From Halocaridina rubra (lineage: Eukaryota > Arthropoda > Malacostraca > Decapoda > Atyidae), in NCBI GenBank assembly GCA_037179515.1, contig JAXCGZ010000102.1, positions 1-64,000 of the forward strand: a stretch of DNA of 64,000 nucleotides. The letters are read 5' to 3'. A program made the translations under genes and the position numbers. The number at the start of each line of letters is the position of its first letter. The stretch's first letter is position 1. Below are positions 20,201 through 53,200 of the stretch, in pieces. The notes under the pieces were generated by a model. That model saw nothing but the letters and a program-made list of their open reading frames with translations. It was not told where the DNA came from and did not search any database.

Positions 20201-23200
20201 TAAATGGGCAAGGGTCTTCCTCCCACTTCATCGATAATGAGAATGCAGGTCATTTGCTAAGCTTTTATTTTTTATTAATATATTGGAAGATCTTGCTGAA
20301 CCCAGCTTGGTGGCCACCACTACAATTAAAGAGGAAGGCACCGGGGCTTCATGCCTATCCTTGCTCTTTCTGTTTGCTGTTCTGTTGGTCAGTGAAGATG
20401 GGAAAAGCAACTCTTTGCTCCCTGATCTCTTTTAGTCAGCTTTTACAACATTCTGGGGATTCAGAGATGGCATTCATTCTCCCCAACTACCATGGGTGTT
20501 ATTTACCATTTTATGTCATTATTAATCCCCATTCAAGTAGGGTTGAACACAGGATTGGGCTGGGGTATTAAAGCTGGACGCCTTTTCTAATGCCCCATAG
20601 TGGGCTCGAATATGTGGCTGTCTTTTTCCAAGATGAGTGCTCTAACCAGTGCACCACCACGGTCCCATCCCCACCCCTTAGATTATATAGCTTTATAATT
20701 TGATTAAAAATATGTGACACATTCAGATCTTTAGTTTTGATTGAAAGTGTCCATGTGGCATTTTTTGCTGTATTACATTTTGAATGTTATATATTATGTT
20801 GTGTACAACATGAGGGTTTTTTATTTTTCGTGTTGAGAAAAAGTAATGTATATTTGGGTCTACAGTATCAGTGTAGCTTTTGTGTTAGCCCACGCTGATA
20901 CTAATTATGCCCTGTGTATAGTTCAATATGTTGTTTGCTGTTTTATGTGTTACTGTTAATCATCAGTTTTGGGGTGAACGCAGGCCGGTTAGAGCTGGGG
21001 AATTAAGGCTAGATGCCCTTCCTAAAGCCCAGTAGTAGGCTCAGATCCATGTTAGTCAGGTGTGGCACTTTCGAGTTTGCGCAGTCTAGCACTAAGCTGC
21101 TGCAGCCTCCTGCCGTCCTAAAATGGTACTTGGACAAGTCCCTTGGATACATTTTGCTTGTATTTCAATATATATTTATGAATTTAGATTGCCTCTATGG
21201 AAACTCTAACCTAACCTAACTTAAATATTATTATTGGACAGTGCTCCTTTATGGGAGAATCAATGGGGTAGTGGTCCGGGGGCAGTTGTTCCTTGGGACA
21301 TTTGTCCAGGTGCAATTGTTTCATTGGACAGTTGTTTCATGGGACAGTTGTCTGGGGGCAGTTGTTCCATGGGACTGGTGTCTAGGGGCAATTGTTCCAT
21401 GGGACTGTTGTCTAGGGCAATTGTTCCCTGGAGCAGTTGTCAAGGAGAACTTGTTCTATGGGACCATTGTCCAAGGGCAGTTGTTTCATGGGAGGGTCAT
21501 CCTGAGTCCAGTATTCCTAGGATCAGTTTTCCTGATAACCCCGCTGGTTATGTCTTTTTATTCCAGAGCCTATTTCTAGTGGTCGTACCATCATAAGCTA
21601 CCCGAGCAACGACGAGAGGATTCTCTCCTTTCCCGTTAATGCAGAGGTCACTGTGTACAGCAAAGAAGCTGGCAGCAGACAAGATCTTTGGGGAGTGGAG
21701 GTGAGGTCTTACTAATTAATATTCTACAAATTTTTTTATTTATTTATGTGCTACTGTATTCCTGTTTGGGGGTGGATCCAGAGAGACTAAAACTGGGGAA
21801 TAATGGTTGGATGGTCTTCCTAATGCCCTGTAGCAGGGTTGATCGTGGGTCTTTCACATCCCAAGACGAGCACTCTAACCAATGTGCTACTGCTCTGAAA
21901 CGGCAAACATTTTTATGTGATATTCTTCAAGATTTTCTTCCTGCTGATATGCATTTTCATAAGCCAATTAAAGTTCTTTGTAGATTTTTTCTTAATTGTT
22001 CTTTATGAGCTTTCTCTAACATGTAAACTACCTTTTATGCAAAAATATCTCGCAACGTAAATGATCTGCACGAGAAGGGGAAAATATTTAGAATATTTCT
22101 GATATGGTTTGATGGTTTATAATTGACAGGTATTAATGTTGCCTAGGCATACACTCATATATAATGGCTGTAATCTCCCGTGTAAAGGGGTGGCTGAGTC
22201 AGTGCGCACATTCATCTGAACCAAGCGTACCTCGTTCACTCCTCATGGGCATACTGTGAGAACTTATGGATATGTATAAGGAGAGGAAAGGATTGCAATC
22301 TGTTTAGACTTGGAACATACAAATTATATTTATTGTATGTTATTCTGGTTCACCTACCATGTGGATGGTTCAAATAGGATTATGGGGTGGGAATTGTGGC
22401 ACCCCTTTTTCCCCAAGGAGCTGAGAGGAGTGATTGCGGTATTTTTGGCTTATGGAGAATGTGTGTGCTTTAGCTCAGCCACCTTCTTTACAAGAGGGAT
22501 TGCTGCTGTAATATATAAAAAAAATTAGTAAAATTCTTATGTTCTGTTGCAGATAAAAGGTAAAACAGGTTATGCACCCAAACAGTACATCAGAGAGCAA
22601 AAGATATTTGTATCCAAACCTAAGTACGAAGTCCCTACGGAAGCAGCAAGTACTGATAAAGGTCCTCCGTCAGATAAATCGAAAGAAGAAGAGAAGGAAT
22701 TGTCTAATGAGAGCTTTTCAGAAGCAGATACGAAGGTAGTTGAGACAGAGCCTCAGGTAGAAGAAGTACCTCTTTCTGCTGAAACTGAGGAAGTTGAAGC
22801 AGAGCCTCAGGTAGATGAAGTAGCTCTTTCTGCTGAGGACATAGAATACAAACAATTGAAGAAGGCTTCAAAAAAGAAGCAAGAAGAAGAAATCTCACAA
22901 GAGGCTGTTGATAAGGAAGAAGAAAATTTAAAAACACTTGGAGATGAAAAGGCAGAAAAACCATCAGATGAAACAAACGAACATGATATTGAGCATGAGG
23001 AGGGAGAAGAGGATGAACAGGATGAGGATGAGGATAAAAAGATAAAACGAGAAGAGGAGGAAATGGAGGAGGAGGAAGAGGAAGATTCGTCTCCAAATCA
23101 GGGTGAGCCTGAAGAACAACCAGCAGTCGAAAAAGATGAAGAGAAATTGGAAGATATTGAAGATGGTAATAAAAAAGAACCTAGTAAGTCTCTTCAGGAG

Positions 23201-50200: not shown

Positions 50201-53200
50201 GACTGAGGCAGATTCAGAATTGGCTGCAGCAGTAACTGAAGCAGAATTAGAACTAGCTGAAGCAGAATTTGAATTGGCTGTAGAACTGCATGAGGCAGAA
50301 TCAGAATTGGCTGTGAAAAGGGCTGAGGTAGAGTCAGGATTGTCTAAAGAAATAGCTGAGGCAGAATTGGAAAGGACTGTGAAAGTTGCTGAGGCAGAAT
50401 TGGCTGAAACAGAATCAGATTTGTCCATAGAAGTGGTTGAGGCAGACTCTAAATTGGGTGTAGAAGTAGCTGGTGCAAAATCAGAATTGGCTGTAGAAGT
50501 GGCTGAAGTAGAACCTGAATTGACTGAGGCAGAATCAGAGTTGGCTATAAAAGTAGCTGAGGCAGAATTAGAAGTGGCTGAGGTAGAATCAGAATTGTTT
50601 ATGGGAGTAGCAGAGGCAGAATTGGAATGGACTGTGGAATTGGCTGAGGCAGAATTGGCATTGGCTGTTGAAGTGGCTGGTGCAGAATCAGCATTGGCTG
50701 TAGAAGTGGCCGAGGCAGAATCGGAATTGTCTGTAGAAGCGGTTGAGGCAGCCTCTAAATTGACAGTAGAAGTGGCTGATGCAAAGTCAGAATTGTCTGT
50801 AGTAGTGGCTGAAGCAGAACCTGAAATGGTTGAGGCAAATTCAGAGTTAGTTGTTGAAGTGGTAGAGGCAGAATTAGAATTGACTTTGGAAGTGGCTAAT
50901 ACAGAATTGAATTTGTTTATGGAAGCAGCAGAGGCAGAATTTGCATTGGTTGTTGAAGTGGCTGATGCAGAATTGGAGTTGGCTGTAGAAGTGGCTGATG
51001 CAGAATTAGAATTTGCCATAGAAGTGGCTGAAGCAGAATCTAAAATGGTTGTGGAAGAGGTTGTAGCAGCTTCAGAAGCTGCTGTTATAGAGTTGGATGC
51101 TGAGGCAAATTCAGATTCTATTGTTTTTGTTGAGCCAGTTGAAGAGACTAAAGAAATAACAGAATTAGCATCTAAAACAGTTGAGGAAACTGAAGTAATA
51201 ACAGAATTAGGAGCTGAAATTGTTGAAGACACTGAACTAGTAACAGAGTTAGCATCTGAGACAATCGAGGAGACTGAAGTAATATCAGAATTAGCAGATG
51301 AAACAACTGGAAAAACTGACATAATAGCAGAATTACTAGCTGAAGCAGTTGATGCGATTGAATTAATTATTGAATCAGCTTCTGAAACAGTTAAAGAGAT
51401 GGAAGTAATAACAGAATTTGAAAGTGAAACAGTTGAAAAGACTGTGGTAATAGCAGAAATAGCAGCTGAAGCCATTGAAAAGACTGAAGTAATAACAGAA
51501 ATACCAACTGAAGCAATTGGTGAGACTGAAGTAATTATAGAATCATCTTTTGAAAGAGTTAAGAAGATTGAAGTAATAACAGAGTTAACAACTGAAAAAG
51601 TTGAAGAACTTGATGTGATAACAGAATTAACAGGTGAACCCGGTGTTGAGACTGAAGTAATAACGGAATTCGTAGCTGAAACAATTGTAGAAACTGAAGT
51701 AATAGCAGAATCAGAGGCTGGAGCAGTTGAAGAGACTGAAGTAATAGCAGAATCAGCAGCTGAAACAGTTGAAGAGACTGAAATAATAACATATTTACCA
51801 AGTGAAGGAGTTAATAAGACTAAAGTAGTAACTGAATTAGCAGCTAAACCCATTGATGAGGCTGAAGAAATTACTGAGGCAATTGAAGAGAAATCTGCTG
51901 AAGTAGGTGAAAACTTGTTAGCTGCTAAAGTGGAAATATTTTTAGCCATGGCAAAAACTGTATTCCAAGCTTTTAAGGAATCACTGACAGAGGAAATGGA
52001 TACTATACATGTGGCTGTAGATGAACATGTTGGAGGTATTTTTGAAAACAAATTATTAGTAAGGCTTAACAGTATTGTGTACAGCTATCATCCCGACTAT
52101 CAGGCTAGATTATTGTAAGTATTCTATAAGCTTCGTTTATTTCTGCTTACTGTATTACTTTTGTTATTTTCATTTGTATTTTATTTGCTTTTGGAGACCC
52201 TATTGACTCAAGCAAATAATGGCAATATAAATTAAAAACAAATGTAAAGATTGGTGCCATAGCTTATTTTAAATGTATTAAGCTGTTCCTAAGACTTATT
52301 TTTTTTTTAGAAATTGTAGTGTATTGCTTCAAAGTTGTAAAGAGAGCTTTTACTACCCGTCTGCAAACCCTCATTGGTGCCCGGGCCCGATGAGGGCAGT
52401 TATCTTTACCCTTCCCAGTGTCTCACTTATTAAAAAAATATACGGGAATACCAAGCAAAGGTCGCCTGTAAATGAATGAATATTATTTGAATTATATTTA
52501 TTATGGATAGTATTTTTTTGTAACTGGAATATTTGCATATTTCTGGTGCAACTATTATTTTTTTTCCATTATTTAATATTAAAGCAGTCTGTTTGGATAA
52601 TTAACAGTTCCAATTCAACAAGAGACGTGATACCAAATGTTTAAAGAATATTTCAAAACTTTTCATCTGTGGGATATAAAGCTTTTGGAAAACTGGATTT
52701 GAGAGGCCACTGGTATAACCATTGTCGTGAGTTGAGACCAAAGGAAAGATTTACGCTAAAGGTGCACACACATACGTATATTAATTGATATATTCATACA
52801 GAGAGAGAGAGAGAGAGAGAGAGTATTTATTGCATATATATACGCATATTTGCATAGAGGTATTTATGTTTTAATTTTTATAATAAATAATAGATAAACA
52901 GATATTGAGAAATGCCTAAAGAACCAAATGACATGACAGTATACCCTTACCTAGTATATTTTTAAAGATGTCGCCCAAATGTGAGGACATTGCGTCATCG
53001 TGAGAATCTATTTTGATACTATATCTATGATATGATAACAAACGTCGTAGTCAGCTGTTGAAATGTAAACAATGGACGAGTGAGGGAGCGGTATTCTTCG
53101 CATTTTATGATGTCTGGCAGGTTCCTTCCGAATAATTATCATTAGAATCTTAGATTGAAGATCCATCAGTGATAAATAATTATTAAATAGATTTATTCCA

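Follow-up and report, generated by a model that had tools for sequence, protein, structure and literature searches.

The window analyzed here (64,000 nucleotides, positions 1 to 64,000 of contig JAXCGZ010000102.1) contains the TANGO1 gene of Halocaridina rubra, a decapod of the family Atyidae. Beyond the annotated 5' splice site of its lumenal exon, the reading frame of this gene continues without a stop codon, though with one net +1 break, for most of the following intron. Analysis of the DNA sequence makes it rather probable, in our view, that the continuation serves an additional isoform of about 9,700-9,940 residues, which would carry the SH3-like MOTH domain (the term used in PMC10119292) at its head, take its polyanionic lumenal repeat chain from one coding exon measuring up to 29.6 kb, be either membrane-anchored or soluble, and perhaps be shared with Macrobrachium.

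The gene was identified by comparison with a deposited H. rubra protein (P0003, hypothetical protein SK128_014215, TANGO1-like, 1,528 residues). We spliced exons 1 and 2, the lumenal exon in two parts (22,553-24,347 and 25,014-25,136), and the four downstream coding exons beginning at 54,260, 60,363, 62,038, and 63,257 (table 1). The product is identical to residues 1-864 of P0003 (864 of the 864 residues tested), and all seven internal boundaries have AG/GT. Matches of P0003 with >85% identity extend to position 78,408 of the contig (148,247 bases); 11 of them lie from 60,363 on, and residues 865-943 are not among them. P0003 leaves the lumenal exon at 25,136 (ELVHLAG, donor GTGAGT) and resumes at 54,260; therefore, the annotated form has an intron of 29.1 kb at 25,137-54,259.

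When its exons were joined, the MOTH domain matched the solved structures of MIA (1e-06) and TANGO1 (7r3m, 2.3e-05). Generic SH3 domains matched better when only the half from exons 2 and 3 was used, and the score for Pfam SH3_2 was just below the cut-off (21.2 vs. 21.8 bits). The MOTH region is 81% identical to a Macrobrachium TANGO1-like protein and 100% identical to P0003. Besides the CxDxxC start and the lumenal MOTH/SH3-like domain, the protein has a membrane span that separates the lumenal and cytosolic parts (LPEGLAF...IMT of P0003, hydrophobic as judged by eye), followed by cytosolic coiled-coil-like segments and a proline-rich C-terminus, which is visible in P0003. Matches to coiled-coil Pfam families were below the cut-off. 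The identity with the deposited protein and the MIA and TANGO1 matches bear out the assignment to TANGO1 made in a preliminary description of this DNA.

Two stop-free frames on the forward strand, 22,532-32,488 (3,318 codons) and 32,472-52,118 (6,548 codons), overlap at a net +1 change near 32,480. When 22,553-52,114 is translated through this break, 9,853 residues are obtained, and exons 1 and 2 together with the long exon up to the TAA at 52,116-52,118 give 9,938. The 5' end of the long frame agrees in phase with exon 21,567-21,700, which in turn agrees with exon 14,115-14,232, and the frame passes the donor at 25,136 uninterrupted. Thus, both an open frame of about 29.5 kb with one break and its link in phase, through the junction at 21,700, to the exons for the signal peptide and SH3-like domain were correctly described before. 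The proposal that about 9,853 residues separate the SH3-like domain from the membrane span did not hold for the annotated gene, in which 25,136 is the last base of the lumenal exon and 24,348-25,013 is spliced out; the membrane anchor lies 713-844 residues from the start in the 18 protein models in which it was found. A second strong donor-like site (25,286-25,287; GCACAG, GTAAGA; score 7.2) is located 150 bases beyond the annotated end in the same phase as that at 25,136, and its use was not seen in the models read.

The extension looks coding, and its openness is not due to chance, because its six repeat arrays (5,644 codons, 8-23% diverged from their local consensus) contain no in-frame stop codon where about 98 would be expected and because its codon use resembles that of coding exons. 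The expectation was derived from random substitution at the observed rates (400 simulations per array). Five arrays had a lowest simulated count of 3 to 22 stops; the lowest count was 0 for array F, which by itself is unexceptional (3.6 stops expected). In the whole extension there is no in-frame TAA, TAG, or TGA, and the other two forward frames have 952 and 855. Codon log-odds were trained on the coding exons of the short form, with a background built from the same introns that were later scored. In-frame values were positive in all 28 windows of 150 bases within 23,750-27,949, although the first four share sequence with the training exon. Of 13 blocks of 2 kb, 12 were positive in frame; the remaining block holds the frame change and reaches 0.15 in the later frame. 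The values become negative at 52,100, and 13 of 14 intron windows were negative against the background made from these introns.

The 8,991 residues encoded by the extension have a net charge of -1,887 (-21 per 100 residues) and include 19.0% Glu, 362 Pro, 20 Cys, and 9 N-glycosylation-like sites, with no R.[KR]R site. Most of them form 11-residue repeats: of 15 blocks of 600 residues, 13 had their best lag at 11, 22, or 44 residues, although this lag barely exceeds the median in the block at 41.3 kb. No clear period was apparent at 43.1 kb, and lags of 42 and 14 were favored in the last block. Some segments of array B match other copies exactly or almost exactly. A single ancestral 11-mer for all arrays was considered and not adopted; the consensus units share 3-6 of 11 residues at the best rotation, which is suggestive only. 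AlphaFold2 predicted strands for 36,540-36,935 (array C) and one long helix for 45,846-46,241 (array E), that is, opposite folds despite the common 11-residue period. On the reverse strand, six open frames of 573-960 codons were observed within 27,226-52,084, which are probably by-products of the repeat composition.

Table 1. Features of the TANGO1 gene and its open extension in the window.
Feature	Position	Strand	Remarks
Coding exon 1	14,115-14,232	+	Start codon; hydrophobic signal-peptide-like N-terminus (judged by eye); first part of MOTH (CADPKC)
Exon 1 donor	AAAG/GTTAGT	+	One codon base left over
Coding exon 2	21,567-21,700	+	Core of the MOTH (SH3-like) domain
Lumenal exon, short annotated form	22,553-25,136	+	Donor TTGCGG/GTGAGT; one codon base left over
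Inner intron	24,348-25,013	+	666 bases; spliced out in the deposited protein; retention keeps the frame open
Open extension	25,137-52,114	+	26.98 kb, 8,991 residues when translated across the break; part of an intron in the annotated form
Repeat array A	27,445-30,975	+	132/66/33-base units
Repeat array B	31,781-36,019	+	33-base units within 411-base higher-order copies
Overlap of two open frames	32,472-32,488	+	Site of net +1 change; inside repeat array B
Repeat array C	36,363-39,290	+	66-base units
Repeat array D	40,190-41,255	+	33-base units
Low-repeat stretch of extension	42,069-45,068	+	Little internal repetition
Repeat array E	45,846-51,040	+	33-base units
Repeat array F	51,136-51,871	+	42-base units
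GTAAGT holding in-frame stop TAA (52,116-52,118)	52,115-52,120	+	Possible distal donor and long-form stop
Next coding exon, annotated form	54,260-54,354	+	
Candidate optional exon (27 bases)	57,853-57,879	+	WLAISGALQ; beside the membrane exon; absent from P0003
Membrane-span exon	60,363-60,494	+	Hydrophobic run judged by eye
Cytosolic exon	62,038-62,154	+	Coiled-coil-like
Cytosolic exon	63,257-63,334	+	Coiled-coil-like; gene extends beyond the window

Considering these features, we propose one TANGO1 gene whose lumenal exon has two possible lengths. In the short form the exon stops at 25,136 and is joined to 54,260 and then to the membrane and cytosolic exons, giving 1,528 residues. In the long form the site at 25,136 would be skipped and translation would continue in the same frame for 27 kb, adding about 8,990 acidic residues, mostly in 11-residue repeats, after the MOTH domain, until it ends at the TAA or in a further exon lacking a membrane span. 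The choice of splice site in the receptor's own gene would thereby yield a soluble polyanion of about 9,940 residues, headed by MOTH and either retained in the lumen of the endoplasmic reticulum (ER) or secreted. This soluble version is put forward tentatively, with slightly less than even confidence. We infer that such a chain, if used, could collect cargo molecules or calcium ions in large numbers; an anchored chain would do so at the exit site, and an unanchored one as a soluble or secreted partner.

The ending of the long form was examined at its 3' boundary. The GT at 52,115 leaves two codon bases, and none of its three possible joins (to 54,260, 57,853, or 60,363) keeps the frame; the junction from 52,114 to 54,260 that had been suggested previously is among them. 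A scan of 52,119-60,363 for a single bridging exon gave none using relaxed approximate site scores, under which one of seven known acceptors (63,256) fails the cut. The coding-like codon signal stops at about this point, and an ATTAAA at 52,231, downstream of the TAA, would suit a terminal exon, and a soluble ending is slightly favored over a membrane ending.

A membrane-anchored giant TANGO1, in which a distal donor other than that at 52,114 joins the membrane exons and places a lumenal arm of >9,600 residues at ER exit sites, is possible but slightly less probable than the soluble version. Donors in frame with 54,260 are present after 51,519 (score 2.9) and 51,633 (3.8), and donors in frame with 57,853 or 60,363 after 51,902 (2.0) and 52,058. 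However, these frame-keeping sites are weak (that at 52,058 was chosen by eye and is absent from the list of sites scoring at least 2), and the strongest-looking distal site, GTAAGT, is in the wrong phase. Gene models from relatives also bear on this form. The seven M. rosenbergii isoforms recovered are numbered X18 to X27, with numbers rising as length falls, and neither X1-X17 of this species nor X1 of Homarus was found among proteins of 576-1,832 or about 1,825-5,806 residues. If X1-X17 were deposited with this MOTH end, they would exceed 5,806 residues, which would be consistent with an anchored giant, by an argument from absence; they may also be missing from the database. On the other hand, the X1 models of Penaeus vannamei (1,585 residues) and Procambarus (1,597 residues) are of ordinary size.

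The distribution of the short form was analyzed in 32 relatives of 1,249-1,719 residues, retrieved by a search that reached proteins of 576-1,832 residues. The membrane anchor LPEGLAFG was detected in 18 of them (P0003-P0016, P0018, P0019, P0020, and P0022), always at the distance from the start given above. Among the others, 11 lack this motif, P0021 was matched elsewhere, and two bee proteins were matched by chance. Fifteen of the 18 models bear decapod names, and they are not independent: seven are M. rosenbergii isoforms and four are from P. vannamei. The STARP... stretch, which ends at 25,136 in H. rubra, is present in 16 of the 18; P0007 and P0014 are without it and so exit earlier, exits in other species being read from protein models rather than from splice-site DNA. 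The contigs encoding P0005, P0019, P0021, and P0022 measure 5.4-6.3 kb and, being so short, may be transcripts. Models from Macrobrachium, Homarus, and Penaeus contain optional stretches (WLALTGAVQ, WVSLAAALQ, and WKTLAEALQ) similar to the WLAISGALQ of the candidate optional exon.

Searches were also made with parts of the long frame. Among proteins of about 3,601-11,459 residues, the low-repeat stretch (1,000 residues) gave 4,912 candidates, none of which reached E <= 1, and the stretch adjoining the MOTH core (P0001 7-106) gave 146 candidates and none at E <= 10 among those of about 1,825-5,806 residues. As a local control, the latter query matched Macrobrachium (~6e-06), Homarus, Procambarus, and P. 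vannamei at ~6e-06 to 3e-03; P0021 and some insects would be missed. No Pfam family was found at E <= 0.05 in 25,139-26,839, 32,490-42,068, or 42,069-45,068, and the whole of P0001 gave one sub-threshold match (E 0.083). A viral origin was rejected, since 42,069-45,068 yielded six pattern matches to viral contigs and none was confirmed; 22,553-26,552 had no match in phages. Judged from titles and the openings of abstracts, none of the papers listed in literature searches concerned a giant TANGO1 or exons of comparable size, and no genome paper for H. rubra appeared among the 10 of 48 results displayed.

Several observations weigh against a long, soluble form. The +1 change interrupts the frame once. 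The stop TAA sits inside GTAAGT, as do only 14 of the 1,393 TAA on the forward strand of the window, a hint that the site is a genuine donor and not the end of a terminal exon. Codon log-odds are weakest (0.05-0.12) at 25,100-25,549, just beyond the annotated donor. The ratio of nonsynonymous to synonymous substitution rates (dN/dS) between repeat copies is 0.69-1.45 in frame, indicating little constraint on amino acids; only in array B does the in-frame ratio fall below those of both shifted frames, and we did not count it as support, as the shifted-frame values are biased by the skipping of stop codons. Finally, no relatives of the extension were found in the protein and viral-contig searches made. 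What seems to count is that the chain stays open and keeps its general make-up, more than its precise sequence.

Another explanation is an open frame that was coding until recently and is now always spliced out, with the +1 as a true inactivating change. The extension is absent from the deposited protein and from those of relatives, the frame is broken once, and amino-acid constraint is weak. However, there is a single break in 29.5 kb, where about 98 stops would be expected if the repeats had diverged unconstrained, and we consider this explanation rather improbable. At the break, the copy in the window reads GCGGAATGAG; in each of the five best-matching sister stretches displayed, the net difference in length from this copy brings the sequence back into frame. 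We regard the +1 as either an error of the assembly or an allele of recent origin. An assembly artefact or noncoding satellite-like repeat is very improbable: tandem repeats are abundant and assemblers can miscount the near-identical copies of array B, whereas the stop codons expected of such a repeat are missing, the low-repeat stretch is equally open, and both stretches tested point to one locus in the assembly (the low-repeat stretch matched this locus alone, with one other match at E 6.78, and the first 567 residues of the extension matched this contig alone at E <0.03, with three other matches at 0.04-0.65).

Other repeats were observed around the gene. An 810-codon frame on the reverse strand (1,219-3,651), upstream of and antisense to the first TANGO1 exon, contains a reverse transcriptase domain (PF00078, E 6.3e-35) and belongs to a retroelement. 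An interspersed repeat is located in the intron at 53,460-53,750; with 52,100-54,600 as query, 40 of 41 scored matches were elsewhere in the genome at 69-88% identity (the best 40 of 1,350 candidates scored).

TANGO1 organizes cargo at ER exit sites according to PMC10119292, and the role of its lumenal part is called elusive in PMC7829582. If H. rubra cells use the extension, an isoform with a lumenal chain more than ten times longer would exist beside the ordinary annotated receptor, a natural experiment on the lumenal part, for which a steric spacer, a cargo scaffold, a calcium buffer, and a secreted product are candidate roles. To our knowledge, the exon would rank with the largest coding exons on record, its frame staying open as its amino acids drift.

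The H. rubra gene resembles TANGO1 in its MOTH domain, acidic lumenal stretch, membrane exon, and cytosolic exons, and differs in that its lumenal exon has the 27-kb in-frame continuation beyond the 5' splice site. The long form, if it ends at 52,118, would lack a membrane span, as do MIA and otoraplin, the soluble MOTH proteins of vertebrates. These are small single-domain proteins, whereas here MOTH would head about 9,850 further residues encoded in a gene shared with the receptor. Very large repetitive coding exons are also found in the unrelated genes for titin and MUC16, whose largest measure about 17-22 kb, and one large exon of titin, novex-3, is likewise alternative and carries a stop codon of its own. 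At 29.6 kb, the H. rubra exon would exceed both, by the figures known to us.

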